Source: a virus. From it: a stretch of DNA of 40,459 nt. Below, piece by piece: positions 19,000-39,810 of the stretch. A program made the translations under genes and the position numbers. The DNA is taken from IMG/VR virus record IMGVR_UViG_3300031576_000145, positions 1 to 40,459 of that record; one strand, 5' to 3'. The stretch's first letter is position 1, and each line of letters starts with the position of its first letter. A model generated the notes under the pieces. That model made no database searches. It saw only the letters and a list, made by a program, of their open reading frames with translations, and had not been told where the DNA came from.

Positions 19000-19029
19000 C
19001 CGAGCGGGCCACGCCCGCGGGAGGTGAAC

Positions 19030-19620
19030 GTGATCAATGAACAACCGGCCGATGTCGGCATGCCGACCGAGAAGAAACCGCAGGTCCCGGCAGGGTTCCA
19101 GACCCTGATGGCCCTCGCGGCCGACGCCCCGAAGATCGAGGAGAGGTTCCAGGCGGCCGTCGCCGCCGAGCAGATGGCCCGGGTGCTCGGACGGGACGAC
19201 CTCTGGAGGAAGGCAAACATCCGGGCCTGTCTGAATGCCCTCGGCGCTCCGGAATACGCCGAGCGGCGGAGGGAGGATCTCATGGCGCTCAAGAAACTCA
19301 AGGACCGGAAGGGGAAGGAGAAGGCGGCGAGGCCGCCGCGCACGAAGGCGGAGCGGCCTCCGCTGGCGGAGCGGAAGCCGCGGACTCCCGGAACCCCGGA
19401 CCCCCGGATCCCGGGTGTCGGCTCGACCCTGCACGCGAGCTACAGGGGGAAGGACTACACGGCGAAGGTCGTCGCGGACGGGATCGAGTACCACGGCAAG
19501 GTCTACGGGACGCTCTCGGCCGCCGGCCGGGTGATCACGGGCACGAAGACGCTGAACGGGTTCCTGTTCTTCGGCCTCAACCCGAAGAAGGCCCCCGCGA
19601 AGCCGGCGACCGCCAGCTGA
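19030..19620 (+). CDS. RAMA/DUF2924-like domain protein (196 aa)
   Basis: The N-terminal half is helical (FQTLMALAADAPKIEERF; LWRKANIRACLNALG), then a basic Pro-rich linker. The C-terminal 55 residues, with GSTLHASYRGKDYTAKV and VYGTLSAAGRVITG, match the RAMA/DUF2924 pattern. That domain is known from proteins linked to adenine methylases and restriction systems. It may read methylated DNA; a partner could be the ParB-methyltransferase at 6147. Start GTG 19030 with GGGAGG 5 nt upstream; GTG 19024 is an alternative. Confidence 0.72.
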   Translation: MINEQPADVGMPTEKKPQVPAGFQTLMALAADAPKIEERFQAAVAAEQMARVLGRDDLWRKANIRACLNALGAPEYAERRREDLMALKKLKDRKGKEKAARPPRTKAERPPLAERKPRTPGTPDPRIPGVGSTLHASYRGKDYTAKVVADGIEYHGKVYGTLSAAGRVITGTKTLNGFLFFGLNPKKAPAKPATAS

Positions 19621-19702: not shown

Positions 19703-21208
19703 ATGAGGACTTGGATCGACAGACTTAAGGCCGCCAGGGGGGTTTCTACGCCCCTCCTGGCGGTGGAAACCGTGGACCCCGGGGCGACGGCGCGGGCCAT
19801 CGGGGAGGCCTCGGAGGCCCCGGTCGTGTGGTGGGACTGCGCCGCGGGACCCCGTCCGGTGAACGACGCGGGCAGGGAGGTCTGCTCGCAGACGTGGTCG
19901 GACCCGTATCAGGCCCTGAACCTGGTCGAGGTTCTGAAGGCGGCCGAGCGCATGCCAGTGCGGGCGATGCTGCTCATCGCGAACGCCCACCGGTTCCTCG
20001 ACGAGACCGCGGTTCTCCAGGCGGTGGGGAATCTCCGGGACCCGTTCCGGAACGGGCGGAGCCTGATCCTCCTGGTGGTCCCGGGCGCGCGCCTTCCCCA
20101 GGAGCTCGCGCAGGACGTCCTGGTCCTCGAGCGACCCCTGCCAGGGGCGGAGGAACTCCGGCCGATCGTGGACGAGATCGTGAATGCGGCGGCGGAGCAG
20201 ATCCAGGGCTTCAAGCCCCCCCCGGAGAAGGCTCGGGCGCGTGCCGCGGAGGCCCTGGTGGGCCTCGGGGAGTTCGCCGCGGAGAGCGCGCTCTCGCTCT
20301 CGATCAACGACGGAGGCCTTGCCCCGGAGAATCTCTGGGCGAGGAAGCGGGGGATGATCAACCAGACCCCAGGCCTCACGCTGGTCCCGGCCGGCGCGGA
20401 GACATTCTCCGGGATGGGTGGCCTCCAGGCGATCCGGGAGTTCGGGAGCCGACTTTTCCAGTCCGAGAACCCCCCGCGCCTGATCGTGTGGGTCGACGAG
20501 CTGGAGAAGGCCATCGCGGGCGCCGGCGGGGGAGGCCTCGGGGACTCGAGCGGGACGTCCCAGGATCAGCTTGGGGTGCTCCTCCGCTACCAGGAGGAGA
20601 ACGGCTGGTCCGGGATTCTCCTCGTCGGGCCCCCTGGGTCGGGGAAGAGCATGGTCGCGAAGGCCCTCGGGGCGACCCACGCGACGCCGACCCTGCTCCT
20701 GGACCTCGGGGCCATGAAGGGTTCCCTCGTCGGCCAGTCCGAGCAGAGGATCCGCGCGGCGATGCGGGTGATCCAGGCTCTGGCGGGTTCCGAGGCGCTC
20801 TTCGTTGCGACCTGCAACCGGCTCGAGGCGATCCCCCCGGAGCTCCGCCGCCGCTACCGGTACGGGATCTGGTTCACGGACCTCCCGGACGCCGACGAGC
20901 GTGAGGCGATCTGGAAGATCCACCTGGAGGCTGCTGGCATCGGGCCGGCCGAATTGAGGCCTGGGGACCCAATCTGGACCGGGGCCGAGATCCGGAACTG
21001 CTGTGAGCTGGCGAAGCGCCTGGACATCTCGCCACAGGAGGCCGCGGCGTACATCGTGCCCGTGTCGCAGTCGGATCCGGAGGGGATCGAGCGCCTGCGG
21101 AAGGCCGCGGACGGGCGGTTCCTATCCGCTTCCCGGACGGGGCCCTACCGGGCCCAGGCCGGCGCGCAGGGGGCTCGCGGGGCCCGGAGGTTCGGCGATG
21201 CCGTGTGA
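19703..21208 (+). CDS. AAA+ ATPase with Walker B ahead of Walker A (Ycf46-like, apparently permuted), 501 aa
   Basis: The N-terminal 170 residues resemble the front domain of Ycf46-type ATPases (LLAVETVDPG near residue 19). The AAA+ core is in an unusual order. The Walker B-like block IVWVDE (261-266), with the DSSGTSQDQLGVLL helix, comes first. Walker A GPPGSGKS (309-316) and VGQSEQRIR (343-351) follow. Sensor 1 VATCN (368-372) and PPELRRRY come after that. In normal Ycf46/FtsH-like proteins Walker B lies between GESE and sensor 1. All elements are present, so the enzyme is probably active. The C-terminus has WTGAEIRNCC and FLSASRTGPY. Start ATG 19703 with AGGGAGGG upstream. It is followed by DUF1257- and DUF2997-like genes. 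Likely a remodelling ATPase; target unknown. Confidence 0.87.
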   Translation: MRTWIDRLKAARGVSTPLLAVETVDPGATARAIGEASEAPVVWWDCAAGPRPVNDAGREVCSQTWSDPYQALNLVEVLKAAERMPVRAMLLIANAHRFLDETAVLQAVGNLRDPFRNGRSLILLVVPGARLPQELAQDVLVLERPLPGAEELRPIVDEIVNAAAEQIQGFKPPPEKARARAAEALVGLGEFAAESALSLSINDGGLAPENLWARKRGMINQTPGLTLVPAGAETFSGMGGLQAIREFGSRLFQSENPPRLIVWVDELEKAIAGAGGGGLGDSSGTSQDQLGVLLRYQEENGWSGILLVGPPGSGKSMVAKALGATHATPTLLLDLGAMKGSLVGQSEQRIRAAMRVIQALAGSEALFVATCNRLEAIPPELRRRYRYGIWFTDLPDADEREAIWKIHLEAAGIGPAELRPGDPIWTGAEIRNCCELAKRLDISPQEAAAYIVPVSQSDPEGIERLRKAADGRFLSASRTGPYRAQAGAQGARGARRFGDAV

Positions 21209-21527
21209 CAGCCGGATCTCGATTCCTCTGGAGCTCGATGGTGCCCGCCTCGAGGTCCTGGTGGAGGCGATGCGGCGCCTGGGGTTCCAGCGCAGCGGAG
21301 AGCAGATGACCTGGTACAAGGGCGGGACGCTCACCGTTGCCGCCATCGCCGGGCACCTGACGGTCGTGACTCGGAGCCTGCAGGAGGCCGAGGCGTTGAA
21401 GGCGCAGATCCGTCGGGAGACGTCGAAGGTCATCGTCGAGCAGGCCGCGCGGAAGCAGGGCTGGGCCCTGAAGTGGACTGCGGAGAACCGGGCGGAGGTC
21501 GCCCGGCAGACCTACGGGGGGAGGTAG
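21198..21527 (+). CDS. DUF1257/Ycf35-like protein (109 aa)
   Basis: Begins with a predicted beta strand and helix (SRISIPLELDGARLEVLVEAMRRLGF), then a strand-rich middle and a C-terminal helix leading to KQGWALKW and a basic end. This matches the general layout of the small DUF1257 (Ycf35) family. The neighbouring AAA+ (Ycf46-like) and DUF2997-like genes support the call, since such genes occur together elsewhere. Start ATG 21198 with CGGAGG 7 nt upstream, overlapping the ATPase gene by 11 nt. Probably a partner or substrate adaptor of the ATPase. Confidence 0.65.
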   Translation: MPCDSRISIPLELDGARLEVLVEAMRRLGFQRSGEQMTWYKGGTLTVAAIAGHLTVVTRSLQEAEALKAQIRRETSKVIVEQAARKQGWALKWTAENRAEVARQTYGGR

Positions 21528-21530
21528 CCG

Positions 21531-21746
21531 ATGGACAAGCTCGCGATCACGATCCTCGAGGATGGCACCATCAAGGTCGACGTCGACCGGGTGTCGATGC
21601 CGAATCACGCCTCGGCCGAGGAGTTCCTGCGTCTCATGGCCGAGCTCGCGAACGGAGGACGGCAGGAGCGGACGCGGAAGGGACAGGCGGAGCATCATCA
21701 CCACGCCCACGCGCCGGCGGAGGCCGGGGGGCATCACCACGACTGA
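21531..21746 (+). CDS. DUF2997-like small protein with His-rich tail (71 aa)
   Basis: Starts with ITILEDGTIKVDVDRVSMP, similar to the DUF2997 opening (strand, Asp-Gly turn, strand), then a helix and a tail containing four consecutive His and a terminal HHHD. The histidines could bind metal. Start ATG 21531, GGGAGG upstream, 3 nt after the DUF1257-like stop. Assignment rests on pattern and context. Confidence 0.62.
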   Translation: MDKLAITILEDGTIKVDVDRVSMPNHASAEEFLRLMAELANGGRQERTRKGQAEHHHHAHAPAEAGGHHHD

Positions 21747-21773: not shown

Positions 21774-22682
21774 ATGACCACGAAGATCACGAAGGAGAAT
21801 CCGAAAAACCTGCTCGAGCGCACCATCGCCTACTCGCTCACCCTGCGCGGGATCGGAACGAGCCGCAAGGTCCCGACGGATGCCGTGCAGACCGACGCGC
21901 AGCCGGATCGGATCCGGATCTCGAAACGGATCCTCGAGGGGGACGAGATGAAGGGGATCCGGAAGCTCGACCTGGGCCTCCGGGTGTTCCTCCACACTCG
22001 CTCGGTCCCCTACCCGCTCAAGGCCGGGATCTACCTGATCCCGGTCGATCTGCTCGAGGAAGTGGACGCGGAGGTCGAGCGCGTGCGGCCGCTCCGGGAT
22101 GCGCTGGTTCGGAAGCTCGCGGACCGCATCGATGAGCTCAGGGAGCTGGATCGGGAGGCACTGGCATCGCTCTTCGACGAGGAGGACTACCCCTCGGCCG
22201 AGCGGATCTGCGCGGAGTACGGGATCGAGACCCGCTACATCACGCTGGATCTGCCGGGGAACCTGCGGGCGGTCTCGCGCGCGGTGTTCGACCGGGAGGC
22301 GAAACGGATGCGATCCGAGCTCGAGTCTGCGGGCGAGGCGGTGCGGCAGATCCAGAGGGCGCAGCTCAAGGGACTCGTGGACGGCCTGGTTGCGCGCCTC
22401 ACTCCGAAGGATGGCGGGAGGAAGCGCGTCCTCCGTTCCGGGGGACCACTCGATCAGATGGCCGAATTCCTGGGGCGCTGGGGGCAGCTCAACGTCACCG
22501 AGGACGGAGAGCTCGCGAAGATCGTCTCGCAGGCCAAGAGCATCCTGAAGGGCGTCGACGTCGAGGCGCTCCGGAAGGAGGAAACCCTGGTGATCGGGGT
22601 GAAGCAGGGGATGGAGAAGATCCAGGCCGCACTCGAGCCGCTGATCCAGGACGCGCCGCGGCGGCGGTTCTTCAGCAACTGA
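21774..22682 (+). CDS. Hypothetical helical protein of the AAA+ module (302 aa)
   Basis: Mostly helical: a central region with VRPLRDALVRKLADRIDELRELD and a second long helix (EAKRMRSELESAGEAVRQIQRAQL), so a coiled-coil partner protein is likely. No catalytic motif or membrane segment. It follows the AAA+/DUF1257/DUF2997 genes with its own AGGAGGA site and may complete that complex. A weak resemblance to DUF3150-type phage proteins was considered but is not secure. Start ATG 21774. Confidence 0.7.
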   Translation: MTTKITKENPKNLLERTIAYSLTLRGIGTSRKVPTDAVQTDAQPDRIRISKRILEGDEMKGIRKLDLGLRVFLHTRSVPYPLKAGIYLIPVDLLEEVDAEVERVRPLRDALVRKLADRIDELRELDREALASLFDEEDYPSAERICAEYGIETRYITLDLPGNLRAVSRAVFDREAKRMRSELESAGEAVRQIQRAQLKGLVDGLVARLTPKDGGRKRVLRSGGPLDQMAEFLGRWGQLNVTEDGELAKIVSQAKSILKGVDVEALRKEETLVIGVKQGMEKIQAALEPLIQDAPRRRFFSN

Positions 22683-24380: not shown

Positions 24381-24667
24381 GGCTTTTCCCGCCCGGCGAG
24401 ACGATCCACGGCCCGGGCCATCTCCGCGACGTGCATCGAGCCCTCCTTCTGCGCGACCGCCACGTCCCGGAGGCATTCGGAGATCCTCTCGCTCGCTTTC
24501 TCCTGGGCGTCGTTGACTTCGCGGAGCGCTCCGGCTTGCTCCTTCGAGATGTCCCGAAGGGTCTGCCCATTCCACTTGGCGAGCAGGAGCAGCGCGAACA
24601 GGAGCGCCCCGGAGATGCCGAGGCCCGTGAATTCCTTGATCATGCCGAGATCCAATCCCTCCATCAT
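24377..24667 (-). CDS. Membrane-anchored coiled-coil protein, holin/i-spanin candidate (96 aa)
   Basis: N-terminal membrane segment (ISGALLFALLLLA) followed by a long charged coiled coil (RDISKEQAGALREVNDAQEKA to RAVDRLAGREKP). This N-in, single-span, coiled-coil layout fits an inner-membrane spanin or a BhlA-like holin. It directly follows the amidase. Start ATG 24667 or 24664, with GGGAGGGG just upstream. Confidence 0.72.
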   Translation of the reverse strand: MMEGLDLGMIKEFTGLGISGALLFALLLLAKWNGQTLRDISKEQAGALREVNDAQEKASERISECLRDVAVAQKEGSMHVAEMARAVDRLAGREKP

Positions 24668-25230
24668 CCCCTCCCGTGAATCTGCGCGAGCGCCCGGGCG
24701 ATGCCCTGCGCGGCGCGTTTCCGTCCTTCAGGCGAGCAGGTTTTCTCCCGATCCCCGATGTCGCTCAGGAAGCCGATCTCCAGGAGCATGGAATGGGCGT
24801 TGATGTGGCGGCAGAACCCGGACCGACCCCGGGCGCTCTGAGTATCGTTCCGGATGCCGCGATTGCGGGTTCCGCATGCGGCCAGGACCTCGTGGAGCAG
24901 GATTTCGGCGAGCGCGCGCGTGTCCGATGCCGCACCCTCGGCGACGATGATCTCGGTCCCCGAAGCCTCGCCATCGAAGGCGTTATAGTGGAGTTCGACG
25001 GCCAATGCGACCTCCGGGTCGTAGGCGTTCACGAACCGGATTACGCGCCGGAGGGATTCCGTCTGCGGGCCGGGAAACTCCGGCACCCGCAGGATGGGGA
25101 GCCTGGAAGGGGCCAGGATCTCCTGGACGAGATCCGCGACGCCAGAGGCAAGCCGCCACTCGGAGAGGTCGCCGAAGCGGAATCCAGGCTCGTCGGGATT
25201 GTGGCCGGCGGAGAGAGCGAGAAATTTCAT
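24664..25230 (-). CDS. N-acetylmuramoyl-L-alanine amidase, endolysin (188 aa)
   Basis: Amidase_3-type zinc hydrolase that cuts the bond between muramic acid and the peptide stem. Zinc and catalytic residues visible: His10 in SAGHNP, probable Glu24, His81 in VELHYNA, Glu151 in LLEIGF. Length is that of a catalytic domain without a binding module and no signal peptide, so release probably needs a holin. Start ATG 25230 overlaps the previous stop (TGATG). Confidence 0.9.
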   Translation of the reverse strand: MKFLALSAGHNPDEPGFRFGDLSEWRLASGVADLVQEILAPSRLPILRVPEFPGPQTESLRRVIRFVNAYDPEVALAVELHYNAFDGEASGTEIIVAEGAASDTRALAEILLHEVLAACGTRNRGIRNDTQSARGRSGFCRHINAHSMLLEIGFLSDIGDREKTCSPEGRKRAAQGIARALAQIHGRG

Positions 25231-25937
25231 CAGTTCACCACCATGACTCGGCGGGAAGTTGCCTGGAATGTGATCGTGTTTGCGAACTCGATCCATCCCC
25301 GGAAGGTGGTCCCGGTCTCGGTGTCGTCCACTGGAAGATCGCCGCCGGACGCGCTGTTGCCCCATCGGATGTCGCCGTTGTGTCCCTGGACGCCGCCGGC
25401 TCCTGTTGGCGTCCCTCCCTGCCCGATTTCCAGCACGATTCGATCTCCATCCTCCACGTTCGCGGAAGTCGTCGTCCCTCCGCTCCAGGTCCGATTCGTG
25501 AGCGCAGTGGCGGATTCCGTCGCGTCCCTCGTGATCGCGAGCAGCGTCTCCTTGATCGTCGCCCCATCGTTCGAGACGACGAAAAGCTTGACGGTGATCG
25601 AGATGTTGTTCGCTGCGTTGTTCTCGATGGTCTGAAACTGCCCGGTCACGCTCTGCGCGCCGATGGTCTGCACGGCCACTGGATCGCTGACGTATTGACG
25701 GAACAGCGCATCCCCATCGACCAGATGATCCGCCGCGTCCGGCGAGTAGTCCTCTGTGATCAGGGCGCTCGCGTCCGGCGTCGTGACGGCCCGGCGGGCA
25801 ATTCCTGCAGTATGTTCCCATTCCGCGCTGTCCGTTGGGTTCACGGCAGCCGCGGCATTGGCCGGGAAATAGAATCGAGTTGCGGCCTCTGCCGACAGGG
25901 TCCAGGAAAGAAGCAGGAGCAGGAGAAGCTGTCGCAT
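25230..25937 (-). CDS. Exported protein of the tail-fibre locus (235 aa)
   Basis: Clear Sec signal peptide: Arg, a run of seven Leu, then SWTLSAEA-A cleavage region. The mature part is beta-rich with Asn/Thr/Gly-rich loops (NAANNISITVKLFVV; GIRWGN-like and TFRGWIEF motifs) and no cysteines, like an extracellular or periplasmic beta-sandwich. It is coupled (TAATG) to the large exported protein upstream and to the endolysin downstream. It could act at the cell surface during lysis or be a tail tip accessory. Function unknown. Confidence 0.72.
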   Translation of the reverse strand: MRQLLLLLLLSWTLSAEAATRFYFPANAAAAVNPTDSAEWEHTAGIARRAVTTPDASALITEDYSPDAADHLVDGDALFRQYVSDPVAVQTIGAQSVTGQFQTIENNAANNISITVKLFVVSNDGATIKETLLAITRDATESATALTNRTWSGGTTTSANVEDGDRIVLEIGQGGTPTGAGGVQGHNGDIRWGNSASGGDLPVDDTETGTTFRGWIEFANTITFQATSRRVMVVN

Positions 25938-38325: not shown

Positions 38326-39810
38326 TCAGCCCTTGAAGATGTCGTAGAGGAGGGCGCAGCCGGCCGGCAGGCGCGACCGCAGGGCCCCCATCTCCCGGAT
38401 CTCGAAGGGGAAAATGGGACCGGTCGAGGTCGTCGACGCGTAGTCCCACCGCTCGGGCCCGTAGGACACCGCGTAGTCGAACGCGGAGTCCAGGTCCTCG
38501 CCCGGGGCCGCCCAGGGGATCGACCTCGGGAGCATCAGGATCATCCCGCCGGGGAGGTTCGGCTGCGTCTCGACCGGGCAGCGCTCGCCCGTGACCGAGT
38601 TCAGGATCTCCCCGACGTGGAAGCCCTGCACCATTGAGCTCCGGTTCTCACCGACACCCACGATCACCCGCACGGAGTCCTGCGAGATGCCGAGCCGGGT
38701 GAGGATGCGTCCATCCTGGCCGCTTACGAGGAGTCGCAGGTCGCCGAGCTTCGCGTTGTCGTAGATCGCCGCGAAGGCATCCTGGATCTGCGTGACCTCC
38801 CCGCTCGCCCCGCTCAGCTTCCCGCTGATCGCCTTGACGTGTGCGCCGGATCCCGAGGCCGCGAGCAGCGGGACCATCCCGTCGAACGTCAGGCTGTCCG
38901 CGGAGCTCTCCGTCGCGACCACGGTCGCGGCATCTCCGGTCGTGTTGAGCGACTTCACCGAGATGCTCGACTGGGTGACGATCGCCTCGCACTTGAGGGC
39001 GGGGTTGCCGGTCGCCGTTCCGATGAAGACCGCGTAGGCCGCGGCCGTCGCCTTGGGCGTCCAGGTGATCTTGAGCGCATCGCCTCCGCCCGCGATCGCG
39101 AGCGACACCTCGGTCGAGAGCGCACCCCATCCGTCCGCCTCCGGGTTGATCCCCGTGTGCGCCTTCCCGTCGATGAACGCATCGGTGCCGTCGTAGTCGA
39201 CGGCGCGATCGATGGTCTCCCGGTTCGCCGCCGAGAGCGTCAACGCCGCGACCTTCACGAAGTAGGTCGCCGCCGCGAGGGCGCCGAGACCGTTCCGCTC
39301 GGCGAGGGTCACGCCGGCGACGGCGCCGAGGGCCGTGACGTTCGCACCGAGGTAGAGGATCTCCATCCCCCGCATCTGGGTTTCGAGCACGATCCGCGTC
39401 TCGCGCGCGAGCGCCTCATCGAAGCCCACCCCCATCGCAACCGCCTTCCTCGTGACCTTCCCGCCGATCGCGCTCTCCGCCATCGCCACGGTCTTCGAGG
39501 CGGTCGTGAGCGCGACGGTCTTTCCCGCCGCCTCCTCGCCGACCGACATCTTCGGCAGCGTCACCTTCGTGATCTGCTTCCAGCGCGTCGAGTCGTCCCC
39601 GGGCCTCGGCTTCCTGGCGATCGAGGCGTGGAACGGCGAAAGGATCGGGACGATGAGCTGTGCCGGTTGATCGAGGTTGATCCCCCCGAGCGCGGTCGCC
39701 GCCGTGATCGCCTTGTGCAGTTCGAGTCCGGGAGGCAAACCCTGGCGCGAGGCCTGGATGGCCTTCTCCGCCAGGGCCCTGGTCTGGGCCGTGATTTCTC
39801 CGAGATTCAT
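38326..39810 (-). CDS. Major capsid protein with inserted FN3/Ig-like domain (494 aa)
   Basis: Forms the icosahedral shell. The N-terminal part has KPRPGDDSTRWKQITKVTLPK; the C-terminal part has VRVIVGVGENRSSMVQGFHVGEIL and a final GCALLYDIFKG. Residues about 171-292 look like an inserted beta-sandwich (AAATYFVKVAALTLS; ALKITWTPKATAAAYAVFIGT), a fibronectin-III-like pattern in which an outer sugar- or partner-binding domain projects from the capsid. Start ATG 39810 with AAGGA 5 nt upstream. It follows the protease-scaffold gene by 30 nt, the usual order. Confidence 0.85.
   Translation of the reverse strand: MNLGEITAQTRALAEKAIQASRQGLPPGLELHKAITAATALGGINLDQPAQLIVPILSPFHASIARKPRPGDDSTRWKQITKVTLPKMSVGEEAAGKTVALTTASKTVAMAESAIGGKVTRKAVAMGVGFDEALARETRIVLETQMRGMEILYLGANVTALGAVAGVTLAERNGLGALAAATYFVKVAALTLSAANRETIDRAVDYDGTDAFIDGKAHTGINPEADGWGALSTEVSLAIAGGGDALKITWTPKATAAAYAVFIGTATGNPALKCEAIVTQSSISVKSLNTTGDAATVVATESSADSLTFDGMVPLLAASGSGAHVKAISGKLSGASGEVTQIQDAFAAIYDNAKLGDLRLLVSGQDGRILTRLGISQDSVRVIVGVGENRSSMVQGFHVGEILNSVTGERCPVETQPNLPGGMILMLPRSIPWAAPGEDLDSAFDYAVSYGPERWDYASTTSTGPIFPFEIREMGALRSRLPAGCALLYDIFKG

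Follow-up and report, generated by a model that had tools for sequence, protein, structure and literature searches.

The window analysed here covers positions 1 to 40,459 of IMG/VR virus record IMGVR_UViG_3300031576_000145 (40,459 nucleotides). An ATG-started gene on its plus strand, at 19703..21208, encodes a 501 aa protein (P0001), a Ycf46-like AAA+ ATPase with a segment-transposed core. Its motifs were read from the translation of the open reading frame (ORF), all on the plus strand: Walker B IVWVDE at residues 261–266 (20483..20500), including D265 and E266; DSSGTSQDQLGVLL at residues 281–294; Walker A GPPGSGKS at residues 309–316 (20627..20650); VGQSEQRIR at residues 343–351 (20729..20755), at the predicted start of alpha2; and sensor 1 VATCN at residues 368–372 (20804..20818). 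These are followed by ELRRR at residues 380–384 (20840..20854), the arginine-finger region, and by WTGAE at residues 425–429 (20975..20989), a conserved lid motif at the sensor 2 G-A position of classic AAA proteins. The chain order is Walker B, Walker A, sensor 1, which is not the usual AAA+ order. A preliminary description made from the DNA letters had given the positions of the motifs up to sensor 1 and had placed the Walker B strand and helix (261–294) ahead of the P-loop (309–316). The translation bore out all of these positions, and the order turned out to be common to a whole clade of proteins.

Pfam recognised part of the domain. PF00004 matched residues 305–359 (47.1 bits with a cut-off of 21.2, E 4e-12), and the match took in model positions 1–55 of 131 only, as expected if the chain past the P-loop departs from the usual order. 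A further acidic Walker B, named earlier as the counter-evidence to look for, was found past residue 351 of P0001 neither among the predicted elements nor with a profile built from the Walker B block. In the predicted structure, alpha2 (345–361) leads after a three-residue turn directly to the sensor-1 strand beta4 (365–371), which leaves no room for a beta3 between them. With the same profile, none of the 52 distinct swapped proteins described below had a credible match downstream of the P-loop. Chance resemblance, with a normal Walker B elsewhere and an incidental motif upstream, is refuted by these results, and we give it next to no probability.

Judged by profile matches, the piece that moved and the normal Walker B block are homologous. 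Profile A4, built from 29 normal-order relatives and matched against P0001 alone, fell into four pieces along the protein (profile positions 17–253, 331–371, 273–330 and 374–515). Each piece was significant (26 to 86 bits), and the match summed over the four reached E 8.9e-82 in this single-sequence search. The pieces came in the order N – Walker B – Walker A – C, and the seam lay at 330/331 of the profile, where alpha2 meets beta3. Positions 331–371 matched residues 259–300, ahead of the 273–330 piece. This alignment to Ycf46-like relatives, which the preliminary description had proposed, found the same parts with the Walker B piece relocated. The linker of normal proteins (A4 254–272) was without a match and appears, from the alignment, to have been replaced in P0001.

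The profile restricted to the Walker B block, also built from normal-order relatives, matched residues 261–299 of P0001 (E 9e-11). It matched upstream of the P-loop in 52/52 distinct swapped proteins, with a median of 35 bits; the weakest real match had 9.7 bits, and among 260 shuffled sequences the highest score was 9.0 bits. The transposed beta3-alpha3 segment was delimited at residues 257–302 (20471..20608) from the profile match and from the strand and long helix assigned by DSSP. In the profile pieces, the N-terminal helix and the C-terminal lid are in their usual places, and an internal segment alone has moved. A circular permutation of the P-loop NTPase was rejected, since the ends of the domain are unmoved. 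Intermediates with two copies of beta3-alpha3 would be expected if the swap arose by duplication followed by deletion; none that was credible was found among the swapped or the normal-order proteins.

The first seven relatives, at 36–43% identity over the full length, were all swapped (six IMG/VR contigs and gp103 of Tunturi_3). Wider searches yielded, after duplicate removal, 52 distinct swapped and 35 normal-order proteins, and the swapped order was present in all 52 clade relatives, down to ~34–40% identity. The distance from the Walker A G to the Walker B D fell into two groups, 82 loci at −38 to −49 and 37 loci at +58/+59, and no locus took an intermediate value; redundant loci are included in these counts, and the script looked only inside intervals around both values. 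Ten further loci were not parsed by the script and were read by eye; each fitted one order or the other. An assembly error, a misjoined read or a recombination artefact could be suspected, as the window comes from metagenomic assembly of a virus contig. It is refuted by the same order in 52 distinct proteins, on many contigs and in the isolated phage genome PP885686, and its probability is negligible.

PP885686 is the genome of phage Tunturi_3, whose host is Tunturiibacter psychrotolerans (PMC11924767). It was the sole swapped match found among 50,697 phage records, with representatives read for the weaker matches; the remaining swapped proteins come from environmental contigs. Homologues from mycobacteriophage, Manganitrophus and Geminocystis were considered as swapped candidates, and all had the normal order. 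For cellular genomes, a pattern scan of 84,980 species genomes gave a single relative (L054), in normal order, although a motif-limited scan would miss many.

In a tree built from blocks that had been aligned separately, one branch parted the 52 swapped from the 35 normal-order proteins, with a Shimodaira–Hasegawa approximate likelihood ratio test (SH-aLRT) value of 97. A single change also sufficed when the moved block was left out (SH-aLRT 93) and when it was the only block used (99). These were quick trees without bootstrap. The swapped state is taken to be derived, because p97, Vps4 and spastin, the other AAA+ groups in the comparison, all have the normal order. The segment-swapped order is genuine and inherited by the whole clade. 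Three normal-order proteins, L054 (WGMU01000044.1, a bacterial metagenome-assembled genome), L089 and L090, have WTGAE-type lids and Walker A-side motifs like those of the swapped clade. They are possible candidates for its closest unswapped sisters, with a place in the tree that is not firm.

The structure of P0001 was predicted with AlphaFold2 (AF2) from an alignment with 36 swapped sequences. The result, as asked for in the preliminary description, was a confident AAA+-like model (predicted local distance difference test, pLDDT, 93.0; predicted template modelling score, pTM, 0.89). In the moved unit, DSSP assigned a strand at 260–264 and helices at 267–270 and 285–300; the other strands were beta1 (303–308), beta2 (330–333), beta4 and beta5 (389–391). 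Alpha3 is joined to beta1 after two residues (300 to 303). The in-place beta3-alpha3 unit of the normal-order control L054 (pLDDT 85.9) was alike, with a strand at 315–319 and helices at 322–325 and 336–352.

The whole P0001 model aligned with p97 D1-D2 (Z 17.8, 392 residues, model 2–473), and the active domain superposed on p97 D2 at 2.3 A over 194 residues, lid included. Residues ~1–200 (19703..20302) have the normal order of AF2 elements and no Walker A, and in the model they resemble a first AAA+ ring domain that has degenerated. Given this domain and the whole-model alignment, P0001 would be a ring remodeller of the D1/D2 type. Fewer residues were aligned for the swapped model than for the L054 control: 194 vs 233 on 6g2x (2.3/2.4 A) and, at similar root-mean-square deviation, 203 vs 248 on 3cf0 and 202 vs 239 on 4d82. 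The deficit of 37–45 residues is about the length of the moved segment (46 residues), because a sequential aligner has to omit the moved unit. If beta2 and beta4 keep their p97 places, in line with the 2.3 A superposition, 260–264 is the sole strand left to fill the slot between them.

The catalytic residues were conserved throughout the swapped clade (n = 52). K315, N372, R383 and R384 were each present in 52/52, as were W425, G427 and E429 of the lid motif; D265, E266 and the K next to them were each present in 51/52. One swapped ATPase (L127:3635-5593, IMGVR_UViG_3300031772_000003) carries an intein-like insert exactly in sensor 1, where a sequence beginning with C and ending with HN separates AIAT from CNNLT. 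Its match to Pfam Intein_splicing (E 5e-6) was under the curated cut-off. Inteins typically sit in live catalytic sites, and the insert was counted in favour of an active domain.

We consider it very likely that P0001 is a two-domain Ycf46-like AAA+ ATPase, with a degenerate D1 and an active D2, and that a single transposition of beta3-alpha3 rewired its core; activity is predicted. Several points weigh against this. In 15/52 swapped vs 0/35 normal-order proteins, A or S replaces the glycine that precedes the Walker A lysine (e.g. GPPGAAKS, GPPGSAKS and GVPGVSKS; L014, L016, L018, L024 and L036 are among those affected), and to judge from these motifs some swapped members may hydrolyse slowly or differently. 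The AF2 model is a monomer. The probable place of beta3 in the standard slot of the sheet comes from fold comparison, and the probable proximity of Asp265/Glu266 to the P-loop comes, indirectly, from fold comparison and conservation. The preliminary description had suggested a segment-swapped fold that could still make one active site; the order, the homology, the conserved K, DE, N and R pair and the confident model agree with it, neither of the two findings that it had named as refuting was made, and the proximity of D265/E266 to the P-loop stays at the level of a probable geometry.

The relaxed glycine and the indirect geometry would also suit a domain that has lost beta3, with the moved segment out of the active site, the protein dead or ATP-binding only, and the upstream DE an unrelated or vestigial acidic patch. 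This is improbable in our view, as the catalytic residues are almost invariant, the segment shows homology with the Walker B block of normal-order proteins and folds as a paired strand with high AF2 confidence, and the remainder of the domain fits p97 D2 at 2.3 A. Marginally less probable again is a 3D domain swap, in which beta3-alpha3 completes the sheet of the neighbouring subunit and the site is formed in trans. It is compatible with the sequence and with a model of a monomer rather than a ring. However, joins of two residues (alpha3-beta1) and three residues (alpha2-beta4) would strain a trans insertion, and the monomer alone already folds with high confidence.

In the transposition that we favour, one event in the ancestor of a broad phage clade would have moved the Walker B-bearing beta3-alpha3 unit to just before beta1, where it would take the place of the usual linker. 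The resulting chain would run alpha0-beta3 (Walker B)-alpha3-beta1 (Walker A)-alpha1-beta2-alpha2-beta4 (sensor 1)-alpha4-beta5-lid. The order of strands in the AAA+ sheet is 5-1-4-3-2 (PMC5039278), and it is most likely unchanged in P0001. In such a sheet, the catalytic loops come after strands at one edge and the helices lead back to the opposite edge. Each strand would begin at the bottom with the catalytic loops on top, and three bottom connections would be rewired (linker to beta3, alpha3 to beta1 and alpha2 to beta4). The active site could survive because shifting a whole strand-helix unit alters connections only on the edge away from the ATP. The protein would then have one normal ATP site in cis, with the arginine finger of the neighbour in a ring.

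The ATPase gene lies in a putative operon on the plus strand. Its stop is overlapped by a gene for a Ycf35/DUF1257-like protein of the MPC type (21198..21527), which is followed by a DUF2997-like protein with a His-rich tail (21531..21746) and, as the fourth module gene, a DUF3150-like helical protein (21774..22682). Each of the three families is found beside 48/52 swapped genes, and the full set at 46/52 swapped loci with iterated profiles. Profiles iterated from the window's Ycf35-like ORF converged with those from a DUF1257 relative, the iterated DUF2997-like profiles converged with a Pfam DUF2997 member, and the DUF3150-like member of locus L108 passes the DUF3150 gathering score. In the neighbours of L042, Pfam gave DUF2997 at E 1.5e-14 and DUF1257 at E 4e-4, just under the cut-off; a Pfam search of the window's own ORFs at 21198-21527 and 21531-21746 did not reach DUF1257 or DUF2997 directly. 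A Ca. Manganitrophus plasmid has the same module beside a normal-order ATPase, so the swap probably took place within an existing module, which retained the swapped ATPase. The product would be a phage-encoded protein-remodelling ring, probably working with the Ycf35/DUF1257, DUF2997 and DUF3150 partners.

Ycf35-like proteins with MPC starts pair with DUF2997-like proteins with His-rich tails in 19/19 cases (21198-21746 and 18 other swapped loci). Those with MS starts pair with His-poor DUF2997-like proteins (0/26 with 4 or more H). The pairing of the MPC and His-rich forms suggests, from the protein sequences, a metal-linked subtype of the module. The ORF upstream of the ATPase (19024-19620, plus strand) belongs to DUF2924 (E 3e-14), has a weak RAMA-like C-terminus and is not conserved beside other swapped ATPases. 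Elsewhere in the window, 24664-25821 (minus strand) encodes an endolysin-like protein (PHROG 435, E 5e-24), and 38326-39810 (minus strand) matches PHROG 13692, a family whose function is unknown, along the full length (E 1.5e-42).

The closest known systems are the Ycf46-like ATPases (plastid and cyanobacterial ycf46, and phage homologues such as those of Rhizobium phage RHph_I4 and gp95 of mycobacteriophage SchoolBus), and the top BFVD matches to P0001 were named ycf46 (E down to 9e-24). They share the degenerate N-terminal and active C-terminal AAA+ domains, the motifs and the DUF1257/DUF2997 neighbours, but have the normal order of Walker A, Walker B and sensor 1. On this comparison, the swapped clade is a derived, segment-swapped sister lineage of the Ycf46-like family rather than a regular member, as its core is not colinear. 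The best solved-structure match, the classic AAA protein p97/Cdc48, has the normal order, and both of its domains bind ATP, whereas D1 of P0001 is without a Walker A. The circularly permuted GTPases (YjeQ/RsgA and YlqF/RbgA) are likewise P-loop NTPases found in nature whose G1/P-loop has a shifted place in the chain. They differ in having a GTPase fold and a true circular permutation (G4-G5-G1-G2-G3), while P0001 has moved one internal unit with the domain ends fixed. Mg-chelatase BchI/ChlI and MoxR-type proteins, like P0001, are AAA+ modules with rearranged parts; their lid is placed differently, and the core order from Walker A to Walker B is normal. A literature search that left subscription journals outside found no earlier description of a natural AAA+ core in this order, which does not prove that none exists. 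Two papers with the term 'circularly permuted' (PMC7824862 and PMC10853773) were set aside as AAA+ precedents, since the term refers there to methylases.

Few folds are as conserved as the AAA+ core, and a Walker A ahead of the Walker B is taken for granted in annotation pipelines and motif searches. A family profile sees only part of a domain like this one (Pfam AAA, 55/131 positions). Every catalytic residue is kept though one piece of the core has been relocated, so a highly conserved motor fold seems to have been rewired without breaking. We also considered, as a rather unlikely extension, that the rearrangement is functional in itself. The hinge from the degenerate D1 would then feed the Walker B strand and not the P-loop strand, and movement of D1 or of an operon partner could act directly on the catalytic DE. 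If true, nature would have produced an AAA+ motor that is wired differently for allostery. The swapped clade also opens a way into the Ycf46-Ycf35-DUF2997-DUF3150 module, of which little is understood. As a large natural clade with reversed order, it is a ready-made experiment on which connections of the fold matter, and it allows a clean test of chain topology vs allostery in ring motors.
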